Assembly: GCF_015234515.1 (NCBI RefSeq)
Contig: NZ_JADGMY010000003.1
Span: forward strand, 1 to 37,346
Direction of reading: 5' to 3'
Length of the DNA stretch: 37,346 nucleotides
Source: Cellulomonas sp.
GTDB taxonomy: Bacteria; Actinomycetota; Actinomycetes; Actinomycetales; Cellulomonadaceae
Part shown: piece by piece, positions 47 to 37,346 of the stretch
Numbering within the stretch: the stretch's first letter is position 1
Layout: every line of letters begins with the position of its first letter
Notes under the pieces: generated by a model
The model's input: only the letters and a program-made list of their open reading frames with translations
Told to the model about the DNA's origin: nothing
Database searches by the model: none
Made by a program: the position numbers and the translations under genes

Positions 47-100
47 CAGTCCCATTGCACTCTCGCGCCCTTGGAGGGGACTGGATTGCACTCTCGCGGC
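47..100 (-). repeat. Two copies of the 3'-end repeat family (left edge)
   Basis: Read on the minus strand, the copy at 79-100 is GCGAGAGTGCAATCCAGTC, matching the units of the array at 37017-37325. The copy at 47-69 shares GCGAGAGTGCAAT, but its last third diverges to GGGACTG. Both lie within about 70 bases of the stop codon of the leftward gene at 113. They have the same orientation relative to that gene as the right-hand array has to uxaC. Function is unknown. Confidence 0.8.
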
Positions 101-35492: not shown

Positions 35493-35570
35493 CCGTGGTG
35501 GGCGACCCCCGTCGTCCGCACCGCGGCAGCGCGCCGCAGCGCCGCCGTGGCCCGGCGCTGGAGGATCCCC

Positions 35571-37025
35571 ATGCCCGACCCCGCAGCCGCTGCTCCCCGC
35601 TGGGCGCTGCACCCCGACCGTGCCCTGCCGGCCGACCCGGTGACCCGCCCGGTCGCACGGCAGATCCTCGACGCGACGCGTGACCTGCCGATCGTGTCGA
35701 TGCACGGTCACGTCGACGCCGGCGTGCTGGCGCGGGACGAGCGGTTCGACGACCCCGCCTCGCTGCTCGTCGTGCCGGACCACTACCTCGTGCGCATGCT
35801 GGTCTCCCAGGGCGTCCCGCACGAGGCTCTCGGCCTGCCGCGCCGCGACGGCGGCGCGGTGCAGAGCGACCCGCGAGAGATCTGGCGGACGTTCGCGTCG
35901 CACTGGCACCTCTTCCGCGGGACGCCCACGCGGTTCTGGATGGAGCACGTGCTGGTCGAGGTGCTCGGCGTGACCGAGCGGTTGTCCGCCGCCACGGCTG
36001 ACGCCGCGTACGACACGATCGCCGAGCGCCTCGCCGAGCCGGGCTTCCGGCCGCTCGCGCTGCTCGACCGGTTCGGCATCGAGATCATCGCGACCACCGA
36101 TCCCGCGTCCGCCGACCTGGCCGACCACGCCGACCTCGCCGCTCGCGGCTGGGGCGAGCGGATCGTCCCCACGTTCCGCCCGGACGCGGTGCTGCACGTC
36201 GACCGGCGGGGCTGGGCCGACGACGTCGCGCTGCTGGGGGAGCGCGCGGGTGTGCCGATCAGCTCCTACCGCGACTTCCTGCGGGCGCTGGAGGCGCGGC
36301 GCTGGGCCTTCGTCGACGCGGGTGCGCGCGCGACCGACCACGGTCACGTGCTCGCGGACACGACGCCGATGGCGGAGACCGACGCGACCGCCGTGTTCGC
36401 GTCCGCGCTGCGCGGTGACGTCGACCCGGCCGCGGCGCGCGCGTTCTCCGCCCACATGCTGTTCGAGATGGCGCGCATGTCCACGCAGGACGGCCTGGTC
36501 ATGCAGCTTCACCCCGGGGCGCTGCGCGACCACGACCCGCACGTGGCGGCGACGCTCGGGCACGACGTGGGGTACGACATCCCGGTCGCCACGGAGTACG
36601 TGAAGGCGCTGCGTCCGCTGCTGTCCGCCTTCGGCCACCACCCGGACCTGCGCCTCGTGCTCTTCACGCTCGACGAGGACACGTTCAGCCGCGAGCTCGC
36701 GCCGCTGGCGGGCGTGTACCCGGCGGTGCGGCTGGGTGCACCGTGGTGGTTCCTCGACAGCCCCGACGGCATGCGGCGGTTCCGCGAGGCCGTCACCGAC
36801 ACCGCGGGGTTCGCCAACACCACGGGCTTCGTCGACGACACCCGCGCGTTCCTCTCGATCCCGGCGCGGCACGACCTGTCGCGACGCATCGACGCGGGCT
36901 TCCTCGCGCGGCTCGTCGTCGAGCACCGGCTCGACCTCGACGAGGCCCTGGAGACCGCCGTCGACCTGGCCTACGGCCTCCCCCGCGCCGCCTACGCCCG
37001 CCAGACCACCCCCGCAGGTGCGTGA
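35571..37025 (+). CDS. uxaC: Glucuronate isomerase UxaC
   Basis: Protein of 484 residues, close to the usual 465-480. The N-terminal metal-binding HxH motif is at His45 and His47 in SMHGHVD. The family segments FRGTPTRFWMEHVL, IIATTDPASADL, RIVPTFRPDAVL, MQLHPGALRDHD and APWWFLDSPDGMRRF are present. It interconverts D-glucuronate and D-fructuronate (and galacturonate with tagaturonate), feeding UxuB. The ATG at 35571 follows GGAGGATCCCC; a start at 35547 would precede this ribosome site. The stop TGA at 37023-37025 lies inside the first copy of the downstream repeat array. Confidence 0.94.
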   Translation: MPDPAAAAPRWALHPDRALPADPVTRPVARQILDATRDLPIVSMHGHVDAGVLARDERFDDPASLLVVPDHYLVRMLVSQGVPHEALGLPRRDGGAVQSDPREIWRTFASHWHLFRGTPTRFWMEHVLVEVLGVTERLSAATADAAYDTIAERLAEPGFRPLALLDRFGIEIIATTDPASADLADHADLAARGWGERIVPTFRPDAVLHVDRRGWADDVALLGERAGVPISSYRDFLRALEARRWAFVDAGARATDHGHVLADTTPMAETDATAVFASALRGDVDPAAARAFSAHMLFEMARMSTQDGLVMQLHPGALRDHDPHVAATLGHDVGYDIPVATEYVKALRPLLSAFGHHPDLRLVLFTLDEDTFSRELAPLAGVYPAVRLGAPWWFLDSPDGMRRFREAVTDTAGFANTTGFVDDTRAFLSIPARHDLSRRIDAGFLARLVVEHRLDLDEALETAVDLAYGLPRAAYARQTTPAGA

Positions 37026-37325
37026 GAGTGCGATCCAGTCCCCCCAGGTGCGTGAGAGTGCGATCCAGTCCCCCCTGAGAGCGCGCGAGAGTGCAATCCA
37101 GTCCCCCAGGGGTGCGTGAGAGTGCAATCCAGTCACCCCTGAGGTGCGCGAGGGTGCGATCCAGTCGCACCCCAGGTGCGTGAGAGTGCGATCCAGTCAC
37201 CGCCCAGGTGCGTGAGGGTGCGATCCAGTCACCCCCCAGGTGCGCGAGAGTGCGATCCAGTCACCGCCCAGGTGCGTGAAGGTGCGATCCAGTCACGACG
37301 GGGTGACTGGATTGCACTCTCACGC
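37017..37325 (+). repeat. Array of nine direct and one inverted 3'-end repeats
   Basis: Units start at 37017, 37047, 37081 (5' end diverged), 37111, 37143, 37175, 37207, 37239 and 37271; an inverted copy is at 37304-37325. The core is GTGAGAGTGCGATCCAGTC. Within the core, variation is limited to C/T and A/G changes: GTG or GCG, GAG or GGG or AAG, GCGAT or GCAAT. Spacers are 6-10 bases, mostly C-rich. The period is mostly 32 bases, not a multiple of three, so it is not a coding repeat. Adjacent units also form CACC-spacer-GGTG mini-dyads. The first unit supplies the uxaC stop codon. Confidence 0.93.
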
Positions 37326-37326
37326 C
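37272..37326 (+). terminator. Long hairpin from the last direct and the inverted repeat
   Basis: GTGCGATCCAGTCAC (37282-37296) pairs with GTGACTGGATTGCAC (37303-37317) with one G-U pair in RNA, loop GACGGG. Pairing continues imperfectly outward to about 37273 and 37326, giving a stem of roughly 24 pairs that could end the uxaC transcript. Confidence 0.55.
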
Positions 37327-37346
37327 AGGAGGGGGAGGGGCGGAGG

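Follow-up and report, generated by a model that had tools for sequence, protein, structure and literature searches.

A dispersed, clade-restricted 3'-end repeat family in Cellulomonas whose 19-base core is a putative recognition site

The window, a stretch of 37,346 nucleotides from Cellulomonas sp., closes on a repeat array that follows uxaC (glucuronate isomerase; 35547..37025, plus strand). The gene was assigned from the list of open reading frames, from orthologues and from the PF02614 UxaC profile, which matches the frame at 1.7e-70. Two starts are candidates: GTG at 35547 gives the longest frame, and 35640 is the choice of the coding score. The array consists of nine direct copies of a 19-base core (37022..37294, plus strand) separated by C-rich spacers of 11-14 bases. 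The copies start at 37022, 37052, 37085, 37116, 37148, 37180, 37212, 37244 and 37276, with core-to-core spacings of 30, 33, 31, 32, 32, 32, 32 and 32. An inverted copy, found by sequence match, follows at 37305..37323 (minus strand). The first-pass annotation had described nine direct copies and one inverted copy after uxaC, the first of which provides the stop codon of the gene. Both statements hold: all ten copies fit the core at 0-2 mismatches, where shuffled sequences give 0 expected, and the frame of uxaC ends within core copy 1 (37022..37040, plus strand), whose GTGA includes the stop TGA (37023-37025).

The array extends beyond the window, whose end just precedes an assembly gap within it; at least three inverted copies lie on the far side. 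Core matches past the window mark inverted copies at 37467-37485 and 37529-37547 of contig C3 of the window's own genome (G000; other G numbers denote related genomes), and an inverted copy with 2 mismatches at L049:4590-4608 also belongs to this array, which thus holds at least nine direct and at least four inverted copies in total.

At the other end of the window, a lone core copy (79..97, minus strand) lies in sense orientation 15 bases past the stop of a minus-strand frame at 113-2338. A degenerate partial core stands at 47-67, about 32 bases from the lone copy and on the same strand; together the two suggest a decayed two-copy array behind that frame. Inside the frame, 21-base tandem repeats occupy 825-1068 and 1650-1763 and are likely a repetitive coding region.

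A search of G000 for the core returned 134 + 145 copies at no more than two mismatches, and a reversed-pattern control returned 0 + 0. A 15-base part of the core alone has 245 exact matches. The family is dispersed, and a local duplication unique to uxaC, which would have told against the earlier proposal, is excluded as its origin, even though local tandem growth does build each array. The core consensus, GYGAGAGNGCRATCCAGYC, was derived from 236 copies in 35 stretches of G000, which were chosen from 100 places among the matches listed, so that mismatch-only arrays could be missed; one such array, of 11 copies at C28 260612-261112, surfaced in a 400-kb survey of the genome. Position 8 of the core takes all four bases, and positions 2, 11 and 18 vary chiefly by transitions. 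The earlier remark that only transitions are seen within the core is correct for the ten copies of the window and fails genome-wide at position 8. On the strand of the core, both flanks are C-rich (C-G skew 0.37 and 0.30). Dozens of genes have core copies just past their stop codons, either singly or in arrays that reach about 19 copies. Of the 35 stretches, ten run to the end of a contig, and several contigs start or stop inside arrays (e.g., L047, L052, L053, L054, L066 and L080). Assemblies from short reads are thus broken by the arrays, and every copy number is a minimum.

Gene neighborhoods were called by our own codon-score method, not by a standard gene finder. Among the 34 G000 arrays for which both neighbors were called, 13 are convergent, 20 codirectional (two of these fall within called frames) and 1 divergent; 7 further arrays at contig ends stand outside this count. 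In an unselected 400 kb of the same genome (C28:1-400000), 47 of 218 intergenic regions of at least 30 nt are divergent. The core was matched in only 10 of the 330 intergenic regions of that survey, five times as a multi-copy array and five times as a single, loose match, a frequency that rules out a general terminator. None of the five arrays is divergent, and the sole divergent match is a single loose one. Two related genomes, for each of which 20 stretches were picked for their cores, gave similar figures: 10 convergent, 10 codirectional and 1 divergent among 21 intergenic regions of G044 (with 3 more copies inside called genes), and 8, 13 and 0 among 21 regions of G003 (with 2 copies inside called genes). 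Random placement, which would also have told against the earlier proposal, is excluded.

A core lies within 75 nt of 43 stop codons in G000, at a median distance of 16 nt. By raw count, all 43 stops are TGA. The TGA is common to stop and core at 3 of these 43 gene ends; a core-supplied stop, real at uxaC, is therefore not a general feature. The first core after the gene is in sense orientation at 25 ends and antisense at 18, and the corresponding counts are 18 versus 12 in G044 and 17 versus 12 in G003. With the first core antisense at 18/43, 12/30 and 12/29 gene ends, Rho loading by a C-rich sense strand is not favored. The flanking proteins are mostly metabolic enzymes; 17 of the 19 scanned match a Pfam family, one of them below the cut-off.

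The repeat is limited to one clade of the genus. Carriers, taken as genomes with at least two exact copies of the 15-base pattern, number 12 among 81 Cellulomonas genomes; the 11 relatives hold 183, 177, 123, 92, 79, 45, 36, 26, 19, 3 and 2 copies. The other 69 genomes have at most 1, and three of them hold one match each. A 17-base form, searched with at most one mismatch in G000 and 147 relatives, gave several copies in 9 of 80 same-genus relatives, none in 71, and a single match in 1 of 67 relatives from other genera. The 15-base pattern finds 3 copies in G079 and 2 in G046, the poorest carriers, which have 16 and 6 within one mismatch of a 17-base form. A second core subtype, GYGAGAGNTCGATCC, is present in 11 of the 12 carriers and occurs once elsewhere in the genus. 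Across 140 sampled genomes of the family, a looser pattern gave 0-3 matches per genome, except in G000 and G003. Ten of 16 matching stretches carry the names Cellulomonas sp. B6, C. iranensis, C. phragmiteti and C. avistercoris; the remaining six are single matches in unrelated taxa. Carrier relatedness was judged by one gene, uxaC, which has a match in 63 of the 81 genus genomes: the carriers head this set in identity to G000 (97-86%), and the next four genomes (84-85%) carry no repeat. Common 10-mers in G011, uncorrected for composition, were only G+C-rich words. We found no description of this repeat in the open-licence literature.

The same gene ends hold different numbers of cores in different species. 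The uxaC slot has one core in G018 and two in G003 (++), and reads +++++++-- in G044 and +++++++++---- in G000. No core lies within at least 190 nt at the orthologous loci of G052, G064, G043, G079, G046, G007, G028, G072 and G011. An overlap of uxaC with the frame after it, at GTGA, is seen in G052, G011 and others; we take that frame to encode a KDPG aldolase. The gene after uxaC in G000, G044 and G003 is a different one. The L075 slot reads -+ in G003, -++++ in G044 and -+++++++ in G000. The skeletons of the L073 slot are --+ / ----+ and -+ / ----++++, and those of the L059 slot +- / ++-------. The orientation skeleton is thus kept while copies multiply across species at the same gene ends. 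The G044 and G003 slots were fetched for their cores; their occupancy is by construction, and they show shared positions, not the frequency of sharing. Five G000 slots were also aligned to sequence fetched from G046, which has one simple inverted pair at one of them, three loose matches at another and none at three. The single slot aligned to G011 has no core. The L068 slot, home to a seven-copy core array in G000, is occupied in G046 by another tandem repeat, with the unit CCCATCCCGCGCGCCGCGCTGA.

Spacers are specific to their locus. Of 386 distinct 14-base flanks, only 3 recur at a second locus: two come from one array split between contigs, both halves of which lead to one G044 slot, and the third is a piece of a neighboring core. 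Between adjacent tandem units of equal period (30 comparisons), the core differs at 30 of 570 sites (5.3%) and the spacer at 70 of 436 (16.1%; Fisher p = 1.7e-8, with comparisons within one array not independent). Among tandem copies, divergence of the core is thus roughly a third of that of the spacer.

The commonest letter at position 8 differs between species: A predominates in G003 (49 of 57 copies) and T in G000 (162 of 245), and G044 is mixed (53 T and 42 A among 115 copies). G000 and G003 have 11 slots in common (L052 and L080 counted as one). Ten of these are A-rich in G003. At five (L047, L049, L059, L068 and L078), G000 is T-rich where G003 has A; both are A-rich at three, and the rest are mixed or otherwise. 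Recombination between arrays is an unlikely cause of this change, because spacers are not shared between loci. A common recognizer or a core-sized conversion may account for it.

The first-pass annotation had raised a protein-binding array phased to the DNA helix, with a spacing close to three turns. The constraint on the core fits protein binding; the phasing does not survive. Counting one vote per array and spacing in four species, 84 of 174 votes fall at 30-33 bp; outside this peak, the 66 votes at 35-70 bp give R of 0.23-0.24 for every period from 9.5 to 12, so that all fit equally weakly, and helical phasing was dropped.

We read these observations as a dispersed, clade-restricted family that grew in place from inverted pairs and whose core is a predicted protein site at gene ends. 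We hold this account tentatively, at somewhat below even. The seed of each array would be an older inverted pair, whose arms were presumably duplicated in tandem, in place, by replication slippage. The core is likely a recognition site, putative as it is: its constraint would reflect recognition by a protein rather than RNA pairing alone. A trans-acting factor would keep the core, and the arrays would be its by-products or amplifiers. The effect could be BIME-like, with the end of a transcription unit marked or insulated on the DNA in either orientation. Recognition by one trans-acting factor would explain why one sequence stands at unrelated loci, why it is constrained within arrays, why either orientation serves and why the letter at position 8 shifts. 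Several results count against a protein site: the strong RNA folding of inverted pairs, the fewness of arrays that lack a partner, the failure of strict phasing, the sense lean of the first core in three related species, and a position-8 difference that is clean at just 5 of 11 shared slots. An autoregulated binder at the divergent locus L062 was considered and rejected; its neighbors encode an alpha/beta hydrolase and an AAA ATPase of the MoxR type, neither with a DNA-binding domain.

The inverted pairs bear on a second reading, in which the core forms one side of an RNA stem-loop at the 3' end (either terminating transcription or protecting the mRNA end). The arrays would then be spare arms made by slippage, with the core preserved since each arm has to pair with the opposite one. 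Both orientations are present in 31 of the 41 multi-copy G000 arrays. Of the ten arrays with one orientation, three are at contig ends (L047, L052 and L053) and four (L049, L057, L068 and L077) have inverted copies at their locus that our 150-nt rule alone sets apart. That leaves L063, L067 and L069, together with a few lone copies such as L048, without an inverted partner nearby, which speaks against obligatory pairing. The low-copy species G003, G072, G079 and G046 have 24 distinct loci of one to five copies each: 6 are single (a few of which may be chance matches), 6 are one simple inverted pair, 9 are larger with both orientations and 3 are direct only. Both orientations at 15 of these 24 loci favor a stem-loop, as do the placement behind stop codons and the simple G046 pair at one of the five aligned array slots.

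Folding points the same way. In the RNA fold of the window array, a direct copy pairs with a distant inverted copy (z -7.6), and simple inverted pairs fold at z -6.9 and -6.1. Two covariation tests disagree. The first, on 38 close G000 pairs, found no excess: 22 of them agreed at position 8, the level seen for opposite pairs in general. The second took the closest pair per locus (40 pairs, three species), and here the letters agree in 28 pairs at position 8 (against 20.8 expected, P 0.005) and in 30 at position 11 (against 21.4 expected, P 0.003), with no excess at position 2 (22 pairs against 21.0 expected). Equal letters at positions 8 and 11 suit pairing or shared ancestry; given the disagreement, RNA pairing stays a live rival. 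The 3'-UTR regulatory system offered in the first-pass annotation may hold as well; the sense lean of the first core, the strong folds and these equal letters bear on it. The simple loci do show stem-loops, but no T-run follows the pairs read by eye, and the core is too sparse between genes to be a general terminator. Pairing also leaves unexplained both the single sequence at unrelated loci and the shift at position 8. We consider the stem-loop a serious possibility, though a doubtful one.

Rfam gave six matches for 36500-37346 of the window, all under the gathering score. On the strand opposite the C-rich spacers, G-quadruplex motifs number 31, versus 8.9 in shuffles, and are found in 21 of 40 array stretches versus 8 of 130 other regions of at least 100 nt. 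We did not adopt a G-quadruplex as the mechanism, since tandem copies inflate the motif enrichment.

Perhaps the repeat is a selfish or mobile family, spread by an enzyme that targets gene ends and without a function for the host? Its clade-limited spread at 2 to 245 copies and its two core subtypes within one clade would fit, and insertion behind genes is harmless. However, PF01797 (Y1_Tnp), the one transposase profile searched genome-wide, is found in 0 of 12 carriers. Many slots are common to species, which suggests old positions over current movement, with the reservation that slots were sampled for their cores. The core is constrained after tandem duplication, and phage and plasmid collections gave no match to it; viral contigs gave four single matches. 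We regard a purely selfish family as unlikely. Least probable is pure mutation, in which slippage-prone C-rich DNA grows and shrinks around a neutrally decaying core inherited from ancestral pairs: local growth, locus-specific spacers and their C-rich, G-quadruplex-prone makeup agree with it, but a neutral core should diverge at the spacer rate instead of about three times less, and neutral decay does not explain why several slots show the same difference at position 8.

Copies are also unevenly spread along the chromosome. In six single-contig genomes dnaA lies at most 1.3 kb from coordinate 1, and the origin half was taken as the half-chromosome around this point, with single mismatched matches included among the loci. 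In G003, 31 of the 40 loci fall in the origin half (p 0.0003); the corresponding figures are 22 of 28 for G072 (p 0.002) and no fewer than 23 of 31 for G044 (p 0.005). Counted by copies, its share is 146 of the 183 in G044 and 141 of the 177 in G043, where 100 places in each were listed by position and the rest taken as beyond the last listed coordinate. For G064, an exact search with one form gave 12 copies, all of them in the origin half and one close to the boundary. Tests confined to one replichore were weaker: 14 of 17 in G044 (p 0.006), 14 of 22 in G043 (0.14), 13 of 20 in G003 (0.13) and 10 of 13 in G072 (0.05). The genomes are related, and these tests are hence not independent. Copies get sparser towards the half opposite dnaA in G003, G072, G044, G043 and G064. 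The enrichment may reflect older DNA near the origin. A bolder extension of the protein-site account, and an improbable one, is that a clade-specific protein reads the 19-base site at gene ends across the origin half as a distributed chromosome-organizing system, with position 8 changing at many loci along with the protein. If so, the arrays would raise local occupancy, and a DNA-binding code and its many sites would be seen co-evolving between neighboring species.

Close relatives offer a natural series of 2, 26, 183 and 245 copies by one pattern, in which small inverted-pair loci can be set against large arrays at the same gene ends. The family is an example of a RAYT-less repeat in which the core is constrained and spacers drift. 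Should the protein-site reading be true, the role and growth of extragenic gene-end repeats would be testable within one genus.

Several known systems can be compared with this family. Judged by its spacers, the array is not a CRISPR: they are short and C-rich, and they recur from unit to unit of one array. The core may resemble the 19-bp repeat of the R64 shufflon. The sites of the nucleoid-occlusion proteins SlmA and Noc are short palindromes dispersed on the chromosome and thinner towards the terminus; the Cellulomonas core, in contrast, is asymmetric and arrayed at gene ends, and we claim no relation. A mobile REP-like repeat that inserts at gene ends had also been suggested for the uxaC array. 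Dispersal and placement behind stop codons bear out part of this idea, but a REP moved by a RAYT is rejected on two counts. Besides its absence from the 12 carriers, Y1_Tnp is found in only 1 of 81 genus genomes, the non-carrier G004. That match, the only one in the genus, lies at G004:C48:3559-3891 (L082), in a genome without the repeat. Moreover, GYGAGAGNGCRATCCAGYC starts GYGA, bears no GTAG/CGTC tag and is not self-complementary along its length, which sets it apart from a tagged REP palindrome.

The best reading is that this is a new clade-specific 3'-end interspersed repeat family, nearest in kind to STAR elements and BIMEs. REP/BIME elements comprise more than 100 dispersed extragenic copies at gene ends, in arrays of both orientations whose inverted pairs can form hairpins (PMC2817692, PMC3733652). 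The Cellulomonas repeat is likewise extragenic, at 3' ends and in both orientations, the exceptions being two G000 arrays and five G044 and G003 copies within frames. It differs in that its unit is not a tagged palindrome, its carriers have no RAYT, and its arrays grow mostly by direct copies. STAR elements of Staphylococcus have a 14-bp core, T(G/A/T)TGTTG(G/T)GGCCC(C/A), and their spacers measure 40 bp or more; the spacers are locus specific, arrays expand locally, and neither a mover nor a function is known (PMC3532100). Both families have a short conserved core, intergenic arrays, locus-specific spacers, variable copy number and few related species that are rich in copies. The Cellulomonas core has another sequence and is 19 bp long rather than 14, with spacers of about 13 bp rather than at least 40. 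STAR loci differ between species, whereas many Cellulomonas slots are shared. Finally, the Cellulomonas arrays differ from STAR in that most include inverted copies, they lie behind stop codons, and their commonest core letter differs by species.
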